Under the pieces are notes generated by a model. The model had not been told where the DNA came from, did no database searches, and was given only the letters and a program-made list of their open reading frames with translations. Shown here one piece after another: positions 4,716-45,268 of a DNA stretch of 50,495 bases (its first letter is position 1; each line of letters opens with the position of its first letter). The stretch is from a virus. The stretch spans positions 1-50,495 of the IMG/VR virus record IMGVR_UViG_3300045284_000404; one strand, 5' to 3'. A program made the position numbers and the translations under genes.

Positions 4716-5913
4716 CGCGGCGGATCTCAAAGCACGGATCGGAGCGAAGGCTGGCCTCACAGCAAAGCCTACGATCTCTGGTCCTGTGCTTGAGAATTAC
4801 CAGCCGACGTGGGGAGATCGGATAGCCCAGTATATGGGCTCCCTGATGGGGAACTCGAACGCCGGAGTTGCTGACAGCACGAAGTTCTGGCGAGAGAAAA
4901 TCAACCCCATCACTCCCATTATTGGAGAGCAGGAAGCCTTCAAAAGTGCAGCTGGAAAAGCCCACGCTGGAGATCTTCAGGGCGCGATAATGGAGGGAAT
5001 TGGAAGCGTTCCTGGGCCCGGACATGCTGAGGCTATGTTCATCGGGCCAGCGGCCCGAAGTTGGAGCAAATCGGCAGCCAAGGAAGCGAGGCTGATGCTC
5101 AAGGCGAAGGCCGATCCGGAGGAGATCTGGAGAAGGACTCGCACGGCATTTGCCCCGGCGAGTGAAGCACCAGAGGATTGGTTCCCCTTCCAAGAAGTCT
5201 CCTCGAGGAACATGGTGATTGATCCAGACCTCGCGGCGAATATTCCAAAGATCAAAGCTAAGGCAAAGCCAGTCGAGGAGTTCATGGAACACCCGATGTT
5301 CTCGGAATATCCGGGATCGGGGAAGATTCCATTCTGGAGTGATCAGAGGCCGGGAAATGCAGGAGGACTTTACATTGCACCGTTTGGTCCGCCAAGGTCA
5401 CTGAAGTCGATCACCAGTATGGCGATGAATCCGGACGAAGTTGGAGCAAGCACACTCTTCCGAGGGAAACCGACAGGATTGATTGGAGCTGATGTTCACC
5501 CAGATTTGATGTTTCCGGAACAGGTGGCAGAGCACGAGTTCCAGCACGGTGTGACGCATTTAGAGGGTTGGCCAACTGCTCTTTGGTCACATCCAGAGGC
5601 CAATAGGGGAATGATGCAGCCGGGAACTCCAGAGTGGAATCTTTTGGACGCTCTGGAAGGACAGTACGGCAGAGACAGGTATCCAGGGATGCCGAAGCCA
5701 AAGAGGCGGTCTCATGGGTTCTATGAGCACGCAGCAGATGAAACTATGTCGAGGAATTCTGAAAACCGGTTGTTCCTCACAGATGATGAGCGAGGAATGT
5801 ATCCTCCGCACCTGACGCAGGATATTCCCTATAATAAGCAGATCTTGCCGAACCTTGTCCGAGAGCGGCAAGATGCACTGCTGTTGAACGCGCTGGTGGG
5901 ATTGAAGCCATGA
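4708..5913 (+). CDS. Zincin-like (HExxH) protein
   Basis: The product is about 401 aa. GTG 4708 is preferred, placing AGAGGA about 10 bases upstream; TTG 4699 is an alternative. Around residue 275 it has HEFQH followed by GVTHLEGW, the HExxH zinc-protease signature, with several conserved-looking Asp/Glu downstream including EHAADE. The N-terminal 90 residues include a region with DRIAQYMGSLMGNS. It could be a virion or pre-ejection metallopeptidase, but the assignment rests on one short motif. It overlaps the GH25 lysozyme gene by 4 bases. Confidence 0.55.
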   Translation: MANAADLKARIGAKAGLTAKPTISGPVLENYQPTWGDRIAQYMGSLMGNSNAGVADSTKFWREKINPITPIIGEQEAFKSAAGKAHAGDLQGAIMEGIGSVPGPGHAEAMFIGPAARSWSKSAAKEARLMLKAKADPEEIWRRTRTAFAPASEAPEDWFPFQEVSSRNMVIDPDLAANIPKIKAKAKPVEEFMEHPMFSEYPGSGKIPFWSDQRPGNAGGLYIAPFGPPRSLKSITSMAMNPDEVGASTLFRGKPTGLIGADVHPDLMFPEQVAEHEFQHGVTHLEGWPTALWSHPEANRGMMQPGTPEWNLLDALEGQYGRDRYPGMPKPKRRSHGFYEHAADETMSRNSENRLFLTDDERGMYPPHLTQDIPYNKQILPNLVRERQDALLLNALVGLKP

Positions 5914-35039: not shown

Positions 35040-36110
35040 TCATTCCTCCCTCTTGAAATCATCTCTATTCCTGAAACGCATCATCTTCCATGAGGCCTCG
35101 TCAGTGTGTAGGGAGGCCAGAGTTCCGAGGTCCTTTTTGAGTTCTGGCCAAAGGGCGTGCTGGAGCAGCATGGTATCCTCCGAGCAGTTCCTCAGCGGTG
35201 CTCTCCAATTCTCCCAGAAGTAGGCCATGTCGTACATACCATTCTGGAAAATCTTAGTGACAGAGGAATTCCCTAAGAGTCTCCGGAACTCTCGGACAAT
35301 TCGGCACTCTTCCTCGTGGCTCCAGTAACTGCCGTTCTCCCTTCGGAGATCCATAAACGGAATAACAGCTGCCTCTGTAGGAGAGAGGCCAATACCGCAG
35401 ACGGTGATCTGCCCGGCTTTTGTCTCCACATCGAGAGTAATTTCGTTGGCCCACTGAGCCCGATCAAGAACGTCCAGAGCCTCTCGTAGGGTGGGGTCCA
35501 CCAGAATCTGACGGTGGGGAATTCTGACATCAGGATATAATGACTCTCTTTTGAGCTTGCCGAAGTCAGCGATTGTAATGACTCTATCCTTCCAGTTTCG
35601 CAGTACGTAAGCTGGATGGTAGGCGGGGAGGACCTTGTATTGAACCCCCCTGATTGTACAAATATGGACTCGTCCGCGTAGTGCTGTAATCTTAGGTGTC
35701 TGTTTGAAGACGGCCCAGCAGCTGGAGTTCCCAAGACAGCACAATATGTTTGGACGACAAGCGGAGATCTCGTCGTAGAGGCGTTCGATCTCAAAGGCGA
35801 AGTCTTTAATGACGTACCGCCCTGGGAATAGCGCAGGGAATCCTGAGATTCCATTCTTCATCTCCTGTCGCTGGGTAAAGTTCTCGATCTTATTGTCGGG
35901 AGGCCGAGAGAAGAAGACATTGGTCATGAAGCATTCAGTGGGTTCGATCCCTGCCTGTCTGAGCATCCTCCGCAGCTCCCTCCCGGAGGCCCCCACAAAG
36001 GGAGCCCCCTGCATCATCTCCTCAACACCGGGAGCCTCCCCGATGATGAAGATCCGTGCATCCTTCGGCCCAGAGGGCCGCATGGTGGGATAGACTACAT
36101 TCACAGCCAC
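35040..36110 (-). CDS. Uracil-DNA glycosylase fused to proofreading exonuclease part
   Basis: The 356-aa protein has a family 4-type UDG domain (about 1-200): FIIGEAPGVEE, APFVGASGRELR, MTNVFFSRPPDN and YHPAYVLR. From about residue 215 a DnaQ-type 3'-5' exonuclease starts, with Exo I ITLDVETK and Exo II KIFQNGMYDMAYF. It stops at FRNRDDFKREE before Exo III, which is encoded in the polymerase gene downstream. The family 4 iron-sulfur cysteines are not clearly present. UDG fused to polymerase parts is known in some phages; this three-gene arrangement is unusual. Confidence 0.82.
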   Translation of the reverse strand: MAVNVVYPTMRPSGPKDARIFIIGEAPGVEEMMQGAPFVGASGRELRRMLRQAGIEPTECFMTNVFFSRPPDNKIENFTQRQEMKNGISGFPALFPGRYVIKDFAFEIERLYDEISACRPNILCCLGNSSCWAVFKQTPKITALRGRVHICTIRGVQYKVLPAYHPAYVLRNWKDRVITIADFGKLKRESLYPDVRIPHRQILVDPTLREALDVLDRAQWANEITLDVETKAGQITVCGIGLSPTEAAVIPFMDLRRENGSYWSHEEECRIVREFRRLLGNSSVTKIFQNGMYDMAYFWENWRAPLRNCSEDTMLLQHALWPELKKDLGTLASLHTDEASWKMMRFRNRDDFKREE

Positions 36111-36262: not shown

Positions 36263-36605
36263 GATCAAAGACACTCCTTGCCTCTGGTGTTCCCTCCAAG
36301 GCACACTCTCCGGCGATGGCCATATAGGTAGCCCCATCAACGTAGGTGTCCTCATGAGCGACCGTGCCAGTGGCAATACGGCTGATCTTGGTGAGGACAA
36401 GATCGATCGCCTCGTGTTCGCCGGGGCCAATCCTTCTGGAGGATTTCACGGCATACTTCAGAAAGACCCTCTTCAATTCGCCTGCGCAGGCCATGTTTAC
36501 TTTGGGATCTCCGTAGAGGCTATCACGGGTTCCAGAGGTCAGGCGTACTCCCTGGACGAGTATCCTGGCTCTCGGCGTCATCTTAGGCTTCGGCTGATCG
36601 TTCAT
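36183..36605 (-). CDS. DUF6378-like protein
   Basis: The 140-aa protein contains ILVQGVRLTSGTRDSLYGDP, KISRIATGTVAHEDTYVDGA and TYMAIAGECA. This order of R...YGdp, KisRi.tG and Dty.D.a.Y.ai fits DUF6378, often found in phage nucleotide/replication regions and similar to MazG-type helical folds. ATG 36605 overlaps the methyltransferase end by 23 bases. Function inferred as nucleotide-related only. Confidence 0.6.
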   Translation of the reverse strand: MNDQPKPKMTPRARILVQGVRLTSGTRDSLYGDPKVNMACAGELKRVFLKYAVKSSRRIGPGEHEAIDLVLTKISRIATGTVAHEDTYVDGATYMAIAGECALEGTPEARSVFDHEQTDEDFEEAAANQIESAVKEVSSS

Positions 36606-38010
36606 CTCGTATTCCTTCTTTGATTATGAGCTGGTTTAAAGCACGCTTACGCCTGAATCGGTCCAGCTCTGCTACCGCTTCAGAATGGAATTTCTCGTCC
36701 CTTTCAATGCCGAATACCGTCTCTGCTCCGAGGGCCTCGGCAGCCCGAAGCGAGGTACCTGATCCGGCAGTTGGGTCAAGCATCCTGGTTCCACCAGAGA
36801 CAAACATTCGGAAAAAGTGCTCCAGCATGGGTTGGGGTTTCTCGGCTGGATGAATTCCTCTGGATATGGGAGCCGAATATACATCGGAGACGCTTTGAAC
36901 AATCTTTCGATCCCCTCGAGAAATGACAAATGCCGTCTCGTAAATGTGTCTTGCTCGTCGACTTGCATCAGACATCACTCCACTGTTGTCGCTCTTATGC
37001 CAGATAAGGGGTATCCGGAAGATCCGGAAGTCCAAGGGAGCTGCAAAATCTGCAAAGAAGTCATAGGTGCTGTAGATGTTCTCGGTCTGGAACCACAGGA
37101 GTATGTGGGCCGAGGGAGAGACTACATTACTGAAGCAATCAAGGAGGCCTTGGCATAGGTTCCAGTAGATCTCGGGAGAGTCTTCGTACTTGCCGAGATC
37201 ACCTCCAGCATTGATCTGACTGTCACTCCTTCCTGCTCCGGCTCCATACGGGAAGTCACAGTGGATGAAGTTGAACTTCGGCCCGGAGTACGAGGCAGAC
37301 CAAGAGAGGAAGTCGCCAAGCAGAAGGGACTCTTTCCCGGGAAGAATGACTGGAGACTCTGCCAGAGGGGGGACAGTGACAGAGCCTCCAGCGAGAGCAG
37401 GCGAGATAGGGGACCTGCTCTCTGTCGGTGCAGTAGTTGCGAGCTGCACCGATTCCTGTATTCCAACGATCATGTCGTCGAACTTCCGATCCTGTTGTCG
37501 TTGGAGTATAGCGAACGCAGTAGATAGTGACGAAGCCTCCGAGAGGAAAGGGTCTCTTTCCATAGCCTCGGATAGAGCGAGGTATCTAGATACTGATTGG
37601 GTCGTAACACCAAGACGCTCAGCTGTCTTGCTCTGGTTCCATTCCGGGTACTTATCATCCAGTCTACGATGTATGTCGGCTGCTGCATTACAGCGCTCCT
37701 GCCAAGAAAGGTCGCTTCGCTTTACGTTCTCTTCTAGCTCTATGATCTTCGCGTCGTCCTCGGAGAGATCCTCCACATCGAGGGCTGCGATTTCATTCCG
37801 CCCGAGAAAGCGGTGAGCAGTCAGGCGACGTTCGCCTGCCACTAGCACGTTCCCTCCGCGGAGGACAATGGGATTGATGAGGCCTTTCGTGTCAGGAAGC
37901 ACTTCTAGGTTCTGACTAATGGAGGCCATCAGATCAGCTACAGATTCCTGTGTGATCTTCTTGCGCTGACGTTCGTTAACAATGATTTCAGACAAAGGGA
38001 CGAGCCGCAT
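36583..38010 (-). CDS. ParB-like domain fused to DNA methyltransferase
   Basis: ATG 38010 follows AGAGGA closely; a TTG 12 bases upstream is less likely. Residues about 1-95 form a ParB/Srx-type N-terminal domain (INPIVLRGGNVLVAGERRLT). A helix-turn-helix follows (WNQSKTAERLGVTTQSVSRY). The C-terminal half has a catalytic HCDFPYG (about 251-257) before the SAM-binding LDPTAGSGTSLRAAE (about 415), the order of beta-class N6-adenine or N4-cytosine enzymes. It may protect phage DNA from restriction or mark replication sites. Confidence 0.85.
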   Translation of the reverse strand: MRLVPLSEIIVNERQRKKITQESVADLMASISQNLEVLPDTKGLINPIVLRGGNVLVAGERRLTAHRFLGRNEIAALDVEDLSEDDAKIIELEENVKRSDLSWQERCNAAADIHRRLDDKYPEWNQSKTAERLGVTTQSVSRYLALSEAMERDPFLSEASSLSTAFAILQRQQDRKFDDMIVGIQESVQLATTAPTESRSPISPALAGGSVTVPPLAESPVILPGKESLLLGDFLSWSASYSGPKFNFIHCDFPYGAGAGRSDSQINAGGDLGKYEDSPEIYWNLCQGLLDCFSNVVSPSAHILLWFQTENIYSTYDFFADFAAPLDFRIFRIPLIWHKSDNSGVMSDASRRARHIYETAFVISRGDRKIVQSVSDVYSAPISRGIHPAEKPQPMLEHFFRMFVSGGTRMLDPTAGSGTSLRAAEALGAETVFGIERDEKFHSEAVAELDRFRRKRALNQLIIKEGIRDERSAEA

Positions 38011-38021
38011 TTTCCTCTCCA

Positions 38022-38062
38022 ATAAAAAGGGGAGCCTAAGGACCGATCTCCCTTAGGCTCCC
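38022..38062 (-). terminator. Intrinsic terminator in early operon
   Basis: Read leftward, a 12-bp stem GGGAGCCTAAGG/CCTTAGGCTCCC with a 9-base loop is followed by CTTTTTATT. It lies 9 bases after the stop of the 141-aa gene and just before the ParB-methyltransferase. It may reduce downstream expression or act as an antitermination target. Confidence 0.8.
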
Positions 38063-39339: not shown

Positions 39340-39637
39340 TGCGGATTGCTCCCAATTTTGCGTGAATGTAGCCGTACGCATGATGGTATTCTGCAGTTCG
39401 TCGGAGGGCATGTTTTCGTCGACGAACTTGTGTAACATACGAGGGGTCCATATTCAGGAAGAGCGATACAGCAAGGTGAGGAACTCCAGCATCCGTCGAG
39501 GACAGCGCGAAGATCTGCCGAGCCTTAGATACCCTACCACGGTTGTAGCTGGAGAAGATTGGCGCGGGTGTGATCGAGAAGTCATCACAGATGAGTTCAA
39601 GGAGTTCCTCCAACGGAGCTTTGTACTGCATGTTCAT
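39326..39637 (-). CDS. DnaA domain IV-like DNA-binding protein
   Basis: The 103-aa protein has LLELICDDFSITPAPIFSSY, RGRVSKARQIFALSSTDAG and VSLFLNMDPSYVTQVRRRK. This resembles the C-terminal DNA-binding domain of DnaA: a helix, R...AR.ia, and a terminal helix after a mismatch to the DHSTV signature. It lacks any ATPase domain. It could bind an origin or act as a regulator. It is in ATGA overlap with the nuclease gene upstream and overlaps the ATPase start. Confidence 0.55.
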   Translation of the reverse strand: MNMQYKAPLEELLELICDDFSITPAPIFSSYNRGRVSKARQIFALSSTDAGVPHLAVSLFLNMDPSYVTQVRRRKHALRRTAEYHHAYGYIHAKLGAIRNANT

Positions 39638-40551
39638 GTGGATTCAGATCGCTCTCTGGTTTTGAGTGGTTCCCAACGATCCACTACGAAATCACTCTTT
39701 ATGACAAGATCCCGGACCGAGGGATCTCGCCCACAGATACCACGGAACTGACAGCCACTGTATACGTGGCAAGCCTCGAAGTTCTGTGGATAGACATCGG
39801 AGTCCCGGTACTGCTCCGCCATCTTGATGTAGAAGTGGGTGTTCTTCAGCCATTCATCAAGTTGTGCTTTGGTATACGAGGCTTTGAACCGGGAGAACGT
39901 GTCCAGGTTCGTGGCAAGATACACTGCATCGATGATGACGCCCTCAATGTGAGGGTAGAACACAATCTTCCCTCCAGAGGTGTACTGCATCATCTGGCCA
40001 CTGGGCTTATAGGACTCCATATAGTCGTAGGCAAAGCTCTTGGAGGTGGTCTTCCGGTCGAGGACGTAGACCTTCTCATCGAACTCCGCGATCCGATCGA
40101 GGTGGCCAGACAGTATGTAGGGATCCCCGAAGGGATTTTGAAGATTGATCTCGAAGCGGAAAGACAGCTCGACTGCAGGCTGCCCATTGTCGAGGATCAC
40201 CGTCTTGGCTGGGTCGATCCGGAAGTGATCCAGGTATCCAGCCACAGCCCGCACGAGCACTCGTCGGTTCTTTATCTTGTGGTCGCTTTCGAAGTCCGCA
40301 GAGATCGTCGCCGCGTACCGGACTGTCTCTCTGACTGCCTCCGGGTACTCCATCCCCTTCGACCGGAGCTGGTCATAGTGTTCAAGGGCCTGGTGGTAGA
40401 GGATGCCAAAGGTCAGGTGAGGGTTCTGCGCCTTGGGCCTGAGCCCGAGGATGTTCTGGTAGTAGTACTTCCGGGCGCAGGTACGGAGAGTGCCGAGGGA
40501 TGTGTTATCCCAGGCAAGCTGGTAGTTGTCTCTGTAGCTAGAGTCAGACAT
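39634..40551 (-). CDS. Cas4/RecB-like PD-(D/E)XK nuclease
   Basis: The 305-aa protein opens with TSLGTLRTCARKYYYQNILG. The catalytic core is GHLDRIAEFDEKVYVLDRKT (D then D-x-K), followed by GQMMQYTSGG. The end CHVYSGCQFRGIC has cysteines placed as in iron-sulfur Cas4/AddB nucleases, with the N-terminal Cys as the fourth. It is probably a DNA-end-processing exonuclease for replication/recombination. It is coupled to a small membrane ORF upstream. Confidence 0.82.
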   Translation of the reverse strand: MSDSSYRDNYQLAWDNTSLGTLRTCARKYYYQNILGLRPKAQNPHLTFGILYHQALEHYDQLRSKGMEYPEAVRETVRYAATISADFESDHKIKNRRVLVRAVAGYLDHFRIDPAKTVILDNGQPAVELSFRFEINLQNPFGDPYILSGHLDRIAEFDEKVYVLDRKTTSKSFAYDYMESYKPSGQMMQYTSGGKIVFYPHIEGVIIDAVYLATNLDTFSRFKASYTKAQLDEWLKNTHFYIKMAEQYRDSDVYPQNFEACHVYSGCQFRGICGRDPSVRDLVIKSDFVVDRWEPLKTRERSEST

Positions 40552-41084: not shown

Positions 41085-41280
41085 CTGGTATCTCCAGGTT
41101 GATCGGTTTCACTGAAGCAATATGTCGCTCATTTTTCTCGATGAGCGCCCGGACCAATTCACGCACTATAGTGCTTGGGCTGTGATCCGGGTAGTACATT
41201 CTGAGCCGATCGAGGTCACCAGCGTAGAGGATAACATGGTGACGCTCGGTCTTTTCAGAGGTTCTCTTTCTGCGGATCAT
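41026..41280 (-). CDS. Ribbon-helix-helix-like protein
   Basis: ATG 41280 (ATGA overlap with the previous stop) gives 84 aa. The segment TERHHVILYAGDLDRLRMYY, then PDHSPSTIVRELVRALIEKN resembles ribbon-helix-helix repressors: a strand with a two-helix tail. It could be a small regulator of the early operon. Confidence in the fold is moderate. Confidence 0.5.
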   Translation of the reverse strand: MIRRKRTSEKTERHHVILYAGDLDRLRMYYPDHSPSTIVRELVRALIEKNERHIASVKPINLEIPDDELQRILASLPTETPEPG

Positions 41281-41483
41281 GGCTTTGCTTTTGCCTTGTG
41301 AGTGATCCAAAGTTCATTCTCTGGGTCTCGAGGAGAGAGTCTGAACTCAAGACCGCTAAGTTCCTCAATTCCCTCCCGTTCCCTGTAGAGGAGCGTGCGA
41401 AGGCGCTGAGGATCCGAACAGGGAACTACAATCCCAATCTGGTGCCTCAGCGCTTCATACGCCAGATACAGGTAGGAGGTCAC
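41277..41483 (-). CDS. Hypothetical protein, 68 aa
   Basis: GTG 41483 is selected because it overlaps the previous TGA and GAGGG lies 5 bases upstream; a longer start at 41525 would overlap the neighbour more. The protein reads MTSYLYLAYEALRHQIGIVV and ends THKAKAKP. No family was recognised. Confidence 0.5.
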   Translation of the reverse strand: MTSYLYLAYEALRHQIGIVVPCSDPQRLRTLLYREREGIEELSGLEFRLSPRDPENELWITHKAKAKP

Positions 41484-41707
41484 TCTGTCCCTCGTCCCTT
41501 CTTCGTCGCAGCCTTTACTGCCCACATCGCACCGTCTTCGATGTGTGTCATTGCAAGTGCCTTGAGACGCTCTACCTCGCCATCGCCTTCAATTGTTTCC
41601 ACGAGGTCAATGAGATCAGCAGATGCGCGTTTGATGTCTTCCACCATCGCGTTGCCTGATGGATTAAAGCTGATACCAACACGGTATTCACCTAATGACT
41701 CTGGCAT
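41480..41707 (-). CDS. Acb2/Tad1-like candidate anti-defence protein
   Basis: The 75-aa protein reads YRVGISFNPSGNAMVEDIKR, then ADLIDLVETIEGDGEVERLK and THIEDGAMWAVKAATK. This N-terminal hydrophobic strand followed by two long antiparallel helices, with the NPSGN...IK..aA.LID and HIE.gAMWAVKA.T pattern, is how I recall the small Acb2/Tad1 hairpin family (DUF7681). Members sequester cyclic nucleotide signals of CBASS or Thoeris defence. The ribosome site is GGAG. It follows a strong hairpin after the upstream gene. Assignment is from memory of the family. Confidence 0.6.
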   Translation of the reverse strand: MPESLGEYRVGISFNPSGNAMVEDIKRASADLIDLVETIEGDGEVERLKALAMTHIEDGAMWAVKAATKKGRGTE

Positions 41708-41731
41708 AATGCTCTCCTATGGGCAAAGGGA

Positions 41732-41770
41732 ATCAGTACCATACTCTGATCTCTAGAGTATGGCACTGAT
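41732..41770 (-). terminator. 15-bp hairpin after the early paralog gene
   Basis: ATCAGT-G-CCATACTC pairs with GAGTATGG-T-ACTGAT (one G-U pair) around a 9-base loop. Read leftward it lies 18 bases beyond the stop of the 210-aa gene and is followed by TCCCTTTG, a weak U-tract. It probably separates that gene from the small genes downstream, or stabilises its mRNA. Confidence 0.6.
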
Positions 41771-41788: not shown

Positions 41789-42418
41789 TTATTCGGCCGC
41801 AGCCTCAACAGGCGGAGCGATTTCCTCCGCTTGCTTCGCAGCCTCTGCCTTCACGTCGAAGCCCTTGATGGACAGGCCAGCAAGAGAGTCGAGACGAGCC
41901 TTTGCAGCGGCCTCGACCTCTTCCTTGTTCGCGTCCAGAACGCGGGTGTACAGTGCGTCGTACTTTGCCCGCTCTTCCTTCTGCATCTTCGACGGCGAGA
42001 AGCCGTTGGCCTTGAGCGCCTTGTCCAGCATCTCGGTAACGATGTCCTCGACCGCCTTCTCGAAGGGGGACCGAGCACGGCCTGTGCGGATACCGAACTC
42101 ATAACTAGAAACGTACTCGTCGATTTGTTCCTGGAGTTCGGCGATCTGATCTTCCGACAGGGTGGTTGAGTCAGCTACTGGAGTCATCTGCTCGACCTTG
42201 GCCTCTTTGATCTGCTGATCAGTCCAGCCAGCCGCACGAAGCTTTGCCGCACGGACGACGGAGGCAAGGTTATTCCTGACGTTCTCCGCCAGTAGCTGGT
42301 TCATCGCGGAGGCTTCATTACTCTTGAGGGTGTAGCCCTCAGCATACGGCGAGTCGATGTTGAAGTCCACGCCTTGAATCATCAACCGCTGTCTTTTTCC
42401 ATTCAGTTCGTTAGCCAT
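41789..42418 (-). CDS. Early protein related to the duplicated cassette protein
   Basis: ATG 42418 with AAAGGAAC upstream gives 209 aa; a longer start at 42487 would run through the promoter. Segments DFNIDSPYAEGYTLKSNEA, NVRNNLASVVRAAK and SPFEKAVEDIVTEML align loosely with EFRVESASMNGQVLSNDA, GIKQNLTDAYASAK and SPFERIVHELAMAA in the cassette proteins. The middle has an acidic insertion (LSEDQIAELQEQIDEYV). It has its own promoter and a terminator-like hairpin, like the cassette genes. Function unknown. Confidence 0.75.
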   Translation of the reverse strand: MANELNGKRQRLMIQGVDFNIDSPYAEGYTLKSNEASAMNQLLAENVRNNLASVVRAAKLRAAGWTDQQIKEAKVEQMTPVADSTTLSEDQIAELQEQIDEYVSSYEFGIRTGRARSPFEKAVEDIVTEMLDKALKANGFSPSKMQKEERAKYDALYTRVLDANKEEVEAAAKARLDSLAGLSIKGFDVKAEAAKQAEEIAPPVEAAAE

Positions 42419-42458: not shown

Positions 42459-42487
42459 AATATATGGCAATCCGCCGGGGTTGTCAA
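42459..42487 (-). promoter_or_regulatory. Sigma70 promoter of the early paralog gene
   Basis: Read leftward, TTGACA (42487-42482), a 17-base spacer and TATATT (42464-42459) precede the 209-aa gene start by about 40 bases. It is the best consensus promoter in the window. Confidence 0.8.
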
Positions 42488-43501: not shown

Positions 43502-43704
43502 TCCCTTCTTCTCTCAATGTCCGTCCGGCTCAATTGTGAAGCTCGACAGGTCCGGAACACGCCTGTCATGTACTCCACCACGTAGAGGGTCTTGCCTCGT
43601 CGGCTGGTGAAGATTGCTCGGACTTCCCCAGGGATATCATCACGGAGGACTTTGTCCCCAATAGTGAAGATTGGGTCAGTCTGATTCTGGAGTCTCTGCG
43701 CCAT
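43498..43704 (-). CDS. Hypothetical protein, 68 aa
   Basis: The protein has PIFTIGDKVLRDDIPGEVRA, then TSRRGKTLYVVEYMTGVFRT, a small beta-barrel-like pattern seen in SH3-type or DUF2158-like proteins. It begins inside the helicase 3' end. Function unknown. Confidence 0.55.
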   Translation of the reverse strand: MAQRLQNQTDPIFTIGDKVLRDDIPGEVRAIFTSRRGKTLYVVEYMTGVFRTCRASQLSRTDIERRRE

Positions 43705-45268
43705 CTATGTTTCCTTCCAAGGTTATCATGAAAAGGGAGTGCTTAGTTCGTGTTTCGATGACGTAGAGGAGATTTCGTTCCTGCAGCAATTGCCCAGGGT
43801 ATCCCGCTTGGGCTTGGGCCAGAGCATACTTCGAGGGCAGCCGGAAGGGATCGAGGTGGTATACAGTCTTCCACTCGAACCCCTTACTGCGGTGCCCGGA
43901 GGTCAGGACCAATCCCGGCTCAGTCGAGTCGAAGATGGTATCGCAAAGATCCATCGCCTCGCCGAGATTTTCCACCTCCTGCAGGATCATCCGAGCACAT
44001 TCCCGGCGGTCTTTCACTGAGGACAGGAGTTCTCCCTTGCCAGCAGTATTGAGCCGAGAGACCTCCCGTTCATACCACAGAGACAGCTGGGTCAGCAGCT
44101 GGTCCCGGGGGATTGCTTTGTCTGCTACTCGGAGATCCTTCCCGGTAAGGCCAGCGACTTTCTTTACGAGGCCCTTCAGGTTCTTGGCCATGTCTACACC
44201 GAAGTAGGTGAACCCGCGCTTGGAGCGCAAGAGGAGGAAGGCAAGGGACACGAGCGGAGCGTTGTTCCTGCAGATGATGGCAGAGTCGGGAACAATGTCT
44301 GAGACACTCCATGAAGGCAGGGTATCTACGATACCGTCGGGATTGCTCTCGAAGGCCGTAAATTCAGGGTAATGCCTGAGCTGACGCTCCACAACGAGCT
44401 TCGGACAGCGGAAGCTAGTAGCGAGGGGATAGGTATACATCGTAAGTCCGAGCTTGCGCTCGGCTAGCTCTTGCAGATTTCTCATGGAGTTCTGGTCTGC
44501 CCCTCTGAACCCGTAAATCGCCTGCTTTGGATCCCCCACGGCAATGAGCTGCTTAGGGTTACAAAGCATCAGCTGCATATGGTTGGCAGGACTGAGATCC
44601 TGTGCCTCATCCACCAAGACCGTCTCGAACTGATCGTATGGCGCGAAGAAGCTCGTGGTCATGTAGATCTGATCATCGAAGTCGATCAGCTTGTTGTATG
44701 CTTGAGCGATGCTCCAAAGGAGACACTGGTCAGCAAGGCCGAGCAGGCGATCCAGAGGCATCAGGCCTTGGTCCCAATCCTCGAGGATGGAGAACTCGTC
44801 GATGTATTCCTCAGGATTTGGCCCGACGAACCGGGGGCCACGAGAGAGGGCTGCCTTGGGTACCCAGTTATTTCGCCGAAGTAGCTGCACGAAGCGCTTC
44901 AATACCATGAAGCAGCTTCCGTCCTCGTCCCCGCGCTGGATCTCGGGAGCTTGCTCCGAGAGCACGCTCTTGAGAATGGGATTCAGCTTTCCGGGATCAA
45001 CCTCGAGTCGACCTCCTCGTTGCTTGGACCACGCGGCATGGCCGAGACCATTCAGGGTCTTCACGATGACGTGAGGTGGCACGGCTTCCTGAAGATCCTT
45101 GGTGATCCGCTTGTTAAAGGCGACAGCGAGAATTTTCGAGTGAGGCAGCAAAGGAGACAGGAGTTTCAAAGTGGTGGTCTTGGCACTGCCTGCACCCGCG
45201 TATATTGCTAGCGAGTCCCCGCTTGCTGCGGCGGCCTTGATTGCTTCTTGCTCAGGTGTTGGGGTCAT
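43676..45268 (-). CDS. UvrD/Rep-type SF1 DNA helicase
   Basis: The 530-aa protein has a strong GGAGG ribosome site. Walker A is IYAGAGSAKTTTLKLL, near residue 22; motif Ia AVAFNKR; motif II VLVDEAQDLSP, near 220; motif III VGDPKQAIYGFRGAD; motif IV region SFRCPKLV; motif V TSGHRSKGFEWKTVYHLD; motif VI ERNLLYVIETRTK. The length is shorter than UvrD. It probably supports replication or recombination by 3'-5' unwinding. Confidence 0.88.
   Translation of the reverse strand: MTPTPEQEAIKAAAASGDSLAIYAGAGSAKTTTLKLLSPLLPHSKILAVAFNKRITKDLQEAVPPHVIVKTLNGLGHAAWSKQRGGRLEVDPGKLNPILKSVLSEQAPEIQRGDEDGSCFMVLKRFVQLLRRNNWVPKAALSRGPRFVGPNPEEYIDEFSILEDWDQGLMPLDRLLGLADQCLLWSIAQAYNKLIDFDDQIYMTTSFFAPYDQFETVLVDEAQDLSPANHMQLMLCNPKQLIAVGDPKQAIYGFRGADQNSMRNLQELAERKLGLTMYTYPLATSFRCPKLVVERQLRHYPEFTAFESNPDGIVDTLPSWSVSDIVPDSAIICRNNAPLVSLAFLLLRSKRGFTYFGVDMAKNLKGLVKKVAGLTGKDLRVADKAIPRDQLLTQLSLWYEREVSRLNTAGKGELLSSVKDRRECARMILQEVENLGEAMDLCDTIFDSTEPGLVLTSGHRSKGFEWKTVYHLDPFRLPSKYALAQAQAGYPGQLLQERNLLYVIETRTKHSLFMITLEGNIDGAETPESD

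Follow-up and report, generated by a model that had tools for sequence, protein, structure and literature searches.

The gene at 41480-41707 on the minus strand of the window, that is, of the whole 50,495-nucleotide IMG/VR virus record analysed here, encodes a protein of 75 amino acids (MPESLGEYRVGISFNPSGNAMVEDIKRASADLIDLVETIEGDGEVERLKALAMTHIEDGAMWAVKAATKKGRGTE) that, judging by its sequence, is clearly a member of the Acb2/Tad1 family and whose most likely function, by analogy with the characterised members of the family, is the sequestration of cyclic nucleotide immune signals. In a Pfam search, this hairpin protein matched PF24729, the Acb2/Tad1 hairpin domain, with 53.6 bits (E 2.6e-14; the curated Pfam cut-off is 27 bits), the match spanning residues 15-68 of the protein and profile positions 3-57 of 58. 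The same model assigns 70.3 bits to T4 Vs.4 and 65.3 bits to PaP2 Acb2, both above the cut-off, and nothing in 14 control genomes exceeded it; a six-frame search of the window recovered a single gene of the PF24729 type, at 53.2 bits. An earlier note on this DNA had proposed the protein as a candidate sponge of the Acb2/Tad1 type and had named the lack of a profile match as the ground for abandoning that identity. The match exists, and the identity is borne out as family membership, with further evidence coming from the predicted Acb2 topology and the retention of several mapped pocket and interface residues. NCBIfam and PADLOC yielded no match to the hairpin protein, and a single-sequence search of the PDB returned chance matches only. 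Among PHROGs, two unnamed families, 717 and 1454, were hit at significant scores. In phrog_717, an unnamed phage family of 289 positions, the match with the hairpin falls near the C-terminus of the profile (positions 213-284) and, therefore, the domain may also occur fused to a larger uncharacterised protein. At three of the related loci (L005, at positions 4989-5420, as well as L006 and L007), the hairpin gene carries a C-terminal extension of about 70 residues, for a total of 143, a possible domain fusion.

The predicted structure conforms to the Acb2 plan. AlphaFold2 run without relatives produced a hairpin with medium confidence, and run with 17 sequences, it yielded a model (m8e117e3aab55) with a pLDDT of 94.8 that consists of a short N-terminal helix (residues 5-10, the GEYRV segment with Tyr8; 41678-41695, minus strand as for all features of this gene), a long helix 1 (residues 20-37, with Lys26; 41597-41650) and a long helix 2 (residues 44-68, with Arg47, Thr54, Met61-Trp62 and Lys65; 41504-41578). 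Between the short helix and helix 1 lies the FNPS motif (residues 14-17; 41657-41668), whose Phe14, Asn15 and Pro16 show no variation in the alignments of the wider branch. The model thus contains the two long antiparallel helices of the hairpin superfamily and matches the Acb2 architecture, namely, one short N-terminal helix and two long helices (PMC12043709), with no further domain. As for the N-terminal beta-sheet domain of the Tad1 type, AlphaFold2 predicted no strands, and the stretch ahead of the first long helix is only 19 residues long. Foldseek detected no significant match for the hairpin model in the PDB. In VIA-align comparisons, Vs.4 with bound cGAMP (Z 6.0, 61 residues, rmsd 4.1), Acb2 (Z 4.8) and Tad1 (Z 4.7) all scored level with unrelated helical hairpins, of which many were listed. 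The structural searches thus agree with the family assignment without deciding it, and we do not use them as proof.

Closer inspection of the ligand pocket is made possible by a profile-profile alignment of the branch that includes the hairpin protein with the relatives of Acb2 (57 columns, probability 96%, E 2.9e-9), in which Lys26 falls on PaP2 Lys26 and Arg47 on PaP2 Arg67, the same residue in each pair; the Acb2 profile in turn aligns with Vs.4, placing Lys26 on Lys23, so that the chain of mapping is K26 = K26 (PaP2) = K23 (T4). Arg67 of PaP2 presumably plays a role in trinucleotide binding, which we do not count as evidence here. Tyr8 and Phe82 of Vs.4 form stacks with the bases of cGAMP, polar contacts with the ligand involve Tyr8, His11, Lys23 and Arg79, and the hexamer depends on Leu29, Ala66, Ala73 and Ala77 (PMC10097602), and in T4 Acb2, the T68M substitution reduces affinity (PMC12657230; PMC12657218 was the third source of residue facts). 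The counterpart of T4 Lys23 in the hairpin protein is the identical Lys26, invariant in all 66 alignment rows; Arg79 is conservatively changed to Lys65, and Thr68 corresponds to Thr54. At the interface, Leu29, Ala66 and Ala77 correspond to Leu32, Ala52 and Ala63, respectively, and Ala73 to Gly59, a position that is occupied by alanine in 40 of the 66 rows; hence the four hexamer-interface positions are conserved, and the protein may likewise form a hexamer. The stacking residues are less cleanly kept. Phe82 is replaced by Thr68, which is not fatal to an Acb2-like reading because PaP2 Acb2, which was solved with cGAMP (8H2J), has alanine in this position. For Tyr8, MAFFT aligned the N-terminal GEYR of the hairpin protein with IKGYR of PaP2 Acb2, a correspondence that requires the insertion of three residues ahead of helix 1, and this tyrosine is kept only in the sub-branch of the hairpin protein and lost in the wider branch, which weakens the case for Tyr8 as a universal base-stacking residue. 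Because Phe14 does not vary across the wider branch, the residue that stacks on the base may be either Tyr8 or Phe14. The invariant basic residues in the wider branch are Lys26, Arg47 and Lys65.

Compared with Acb2 (anti-CBASS 2) of the Pseudomonas phages PaP2/PaMx33, the hairpin protein thus has in common, besides PF24729 and the short helix with the long hairpin, a YR motif near the N-terminus, Lys26, Arg67 (= Arg47), Thr74 (= Thr54) and Arg85 (= Lys65), but it is shorter (75 amino acids versus 93), has a shorter inter-helix loop and contains three extra residues, the FNPS loop, between the tyrosine motif and helix 1. With T4 Vs.4, it shares Lys23, Arg79 (as Lys65), Met75-Trp76 (= Met61-Trp62) and the interface positions, at about 21% identity in the structural alignment and with a weak profile match to 7uq2 (E 5e-4), whereas Phe82 is missing, there is no clear counterpart of His11, and the structural Z score is not specific. 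Acb4 and Tad2 likewise are phage sponges for nucleotide signals, but they have unrelated folds and are tetrameric (PMC11722364, PMC12043709), and no sequence relation to them was seen.

The reading that we consider probable, from the sequence and the structural model, is that the hairpin protein is a sponge for nucleotide signals with Acb2-like geometry and with CBASS-type signals as the main ligands. This reading is favoured by the PF24729 match, the model on the Acb2 plan, the profile alignment, the mapped residues, the accessory behaviour of the gene and the selection acting on it; what counts against it are the stacking residues, the separation in the tree discussed below and the unspecific structural search. 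In such a scenario, the 75-residue protein would be made early in infection from the replication operon and would assemble into a hexamer of helical hairpins, like Acb2 and Vs.4. As reported for Acb2, the hexamer would bind cyclic dinucleotides at sites shared by two subunits, and its threefold ends would probably take up cyclic trinucleotides, with neither ligand being cut. The effectors of CBASS, whose nucleotides are the most likely ligand, or of a related nucleotide-signalling defence would then stay off, and the death of the cell before the phage replicates would be averted, protecting the phage.

Could the FNPS hairpin proteins instead form a class of their own? In the phylogenetic tree, which is based on 85 columns and comes with a long-branch warning, the branch of the hairpin protein is placed apart from Acb2-proper and Vs.4 with a support of 99/95, so that in this tree, it did not group with the characterised Acb2 and Vs.4. 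From these sequence comparisons, the hairpin protein appears to represent a widespread branch of a known family that the tree sets apart from Acb2 and Vs.4. We regard it as possible, although a good deal less probable than the Acb2-like reading, that this branch is a separate, very common class of sponges distinct from Acb2 and Tad1, with a pocket formed by Phe14, Lys26, Arg47 and Lys65 that would favour some other immune nucleotide, such as cyclic trinucleotides or an as yet undescribed signal.

The main rival to CBASS-type ligands is a sponge for the ADP-ribose signals of Thoeris or for some other nucleotide from outside CBASS, for instance an oligoadenylate of type III CRISPR, that would employ Tad1-like features of the second helix. 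It takes this place because the second helix resembles that of Tad1: helix 2 aligns with CbTad1 with the common pattern R..A.A.TH.E...MW. In addition, PF24729 includes both Acb2 and Tad1. Furthermore, the invariant Lys65 and Lys69 occupy, judging by residue spacing, the positions of the arginines with which CbTad1 contacts gcADPR, which favours this rival. However, the ADP-ribose pocket of Tad1 needs the loops of its N-terminal, four-stranded beta domain, a part of the gcADPR pocket (PMC12043709) for which the roughly 19 residues ahead of the hairpin leave no counterpart, and the profile match to the Tad1 chains is weak (E 0.05). We therefore consider this rival rather unlikely.

Still less likely, in our assessment, is that the Acb2/Tad1 fold performs some other job here, such as binding another protein of the phage or the host, or a nucleotide with a housekeeping role, for instance, c-di-GMP. 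The missing Phe82 and the loss of Tyr8 in the wider branch would be compatible with such a role, as would the location of many relatives next to the terminase and other late or replication genes, and not in an obvious anti-defence island; in Providencia phage PS3, the gene lies between those for internal virion proteins. Against this stand the neighbours, which change between phages, unlike those of a structural gene, and the invariance of Lys26, Arg47 and Lys65 in the wider branch, which is hard to explain by the fold alone and makes it less likely that the protein has lost its function or that the fold has been re-used.

The preferred reading, an Acb2-like sponge, would apply to a large set of genes. 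At least 514 stretches in IMG/VR encode relatives of the hairpin protein, with the closest one, among the matches listed, 79% identical, and the branch is found in genomes of Alphaproteobacteria, Gammaproteobacteria and Bacteroidota, with copies in, among others, Paracoccus, Mesorhizobium, Bradyrhizobium, Endozoicomonas, Spirosoma and Dyadobacter. Among isolate phages, those of Flavobacterium, Providencia, Enterobacter (EcP1) and Pasteurella (Pmp11) have the best relatives. The short FNPS hairpin proteins of this branch, from Flavobacterium phages FCL-2 and FCV-1, EcP1, Pmp11, Providencia PS3 and alphaproteobacterial prophages, are 62-92 amino acids long and share the pattern FNPS...V...K...R....A.T......MW.VKA; those of the isolate phages are 40-44% identical to the hairpin protein and are annotated only as hypothetical protein in the records inspected. 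Because exact peptides, including MWAVKAAT, served to retrieve the IMG/VR loci, conservation of that stretch across these loci is partly an artefact of the search, and we discounted its apparent value of 100%. The claim of conservation therefore rests on tblastn relatives chosen without this pattern (EcP1, Pmp11 and FCL-2), which keep MW.VKA, and on residues outside the searched peptides. The short Acb2 homolog 43 (PDB 9ptq, 76 amino acids) matches the branch only weakly and so, although studied elsewhere, apparently does not belong to it; in the literature searched, we found no published laboratory or biochemical work on the FNPS branch. Acb2 has been described, in a preprint, as relatively rare and restricted to specific phage groups (PMC11722364). 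The FNPS branch occurs in environmental viral contigs that number at least in the hundreds, as well as in three bacterial groups, which suggests that the sponging of nucleotides with this fold may be far commoner than that view holds; if the proposed activity is real, the phage of the window would escape suicide defences by soaking up the alarm signal.

The gene itself behaves as horizontally moved cargo. The nearest isolate found, via the terminase, is Caulobacter phage Kuura, with shared proteins that are 26-46% identical, and the genes for the terminase, portal, capsid, PolA, UDG-exonuclease, AAA and exonuclease proteins occur in the same order in the two genomes (30-46% identity), yet the Kuura genome has no PF24729 gene. 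This absence, together with identity of up to 79% across otherwise unrelated phages, is what suggests mobile cargo. None of the 80 related loci contains a relative of any window gene located up to several kb away from the hairpin gene, only a few genes elsewhere in the window having isolated distant matches there, and the neighbours of the relatives in such loci vary from terminase to ribonucleotide reductase. An IMG/VR search for close relatives with the exonuclease of the window phage as the query found none. A relative, 49% identical, is encoded on two large Providencia stuartii plasmids (NZ_OY979224 and NZ_OY979118), and therefore the gene is not confined to phages. In the Rhodobacteraceae assembly CATOSB01 (L227-L233), a related hairpin gene with an identical protein sequence is found on seven contigs, as if it resided on a multi-copy mobile element.

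The open reading frame of 75 codons that the earlier note had reported is present at exactly 41480-41707 on the minus strand, with all the quoted motif pieces; it runs from ATG to TGA and has a Shine-Dalgarno sequence, AGGAG (41714-41718, minus strand), 6 nt 5' of the start. Compared with eleven relatives, pN is 0.10-0.23 and pS 0.69-0.91, with synonymous sites saturated; the frame is therefore under strong purifying selection, and this is a real, selected gene. The notion of a spurious frame or a chance resemblance, which could invoke its small size, the overlap with a longer frame on the plus strand (41298-41756) and the lack of NCBIfam and PADLOC matches, has a negligible probability and is rejected in view of the Pfam E-value, the hundreds of relatives of conserved length, the selection and the good ribosome-binding site. 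The plus-strand frame has matches at other loci only where it mirrors the hairpin gene in antisense.

With respect to genome context, the placement in an early operon that had been proposed for the gene is confirmed: it lies among replication genes, with the gene for a PD-(D/E)XK exonuclease (39634-40551) to one side and that for a UvrD-like helicase (43676-45268) to the other, and DNA polymerase A is encoded on the same strand. Along with these three, the minus strand encodes the UDG-exonuclease, a ParB-methylase fusion and an AAA ATPase, and the terminase, portal and capsid genes are on the plus strand. The suggestion that the small genes nearby could also serve in anti-defence found no support. 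For the small downstream frames, searches of Pfam, NCBIfam and PHROG yielded nothing above any cut-off (best E 0.05-0.13), and two small neighbours that were searched in IMG/VR, including the uncharacterised 68-residue downstream gene (41277-41483, minus strand), had no relatives there. The GTG start of this downstream gene overlaps the TGA of the hairpin gene, so that translational coupling is possible. Upstream in the same operon is an uncharacterised gene for 209 amino acids (41789-42418, minus strand), with no family above any curated cut-off and no relatives found in IMG/VR. A sigma-70-like promoter, TTGACA-17-TATATT (11/12; 42459-42487, minus strand), might serve both the upstream gene and the hairpin gene, but is only suggestive because one such site was found and 1.2 are expected by chance. 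Between these two genes, at 41739-41763, there is a perfect 9-bp inverted repeat, CCATACTCT-GATCTCT-AGAGTATGG, without a T run, that may act as an operator or form a hairpin in the RNA. Elsewhere on the minus strand, a single open reading frame at 36583-38022 carries both the N-terminal domain of ParB and an N6/N4 DNA methylase domain, and at 35040-36110, beside DNA polymerase A, a uracil-DNA glycosylase superfamily domain is fused to a 3'-5' exonuclease domain, with a similar gene present in the same place in Caulobacter phage Kuura.
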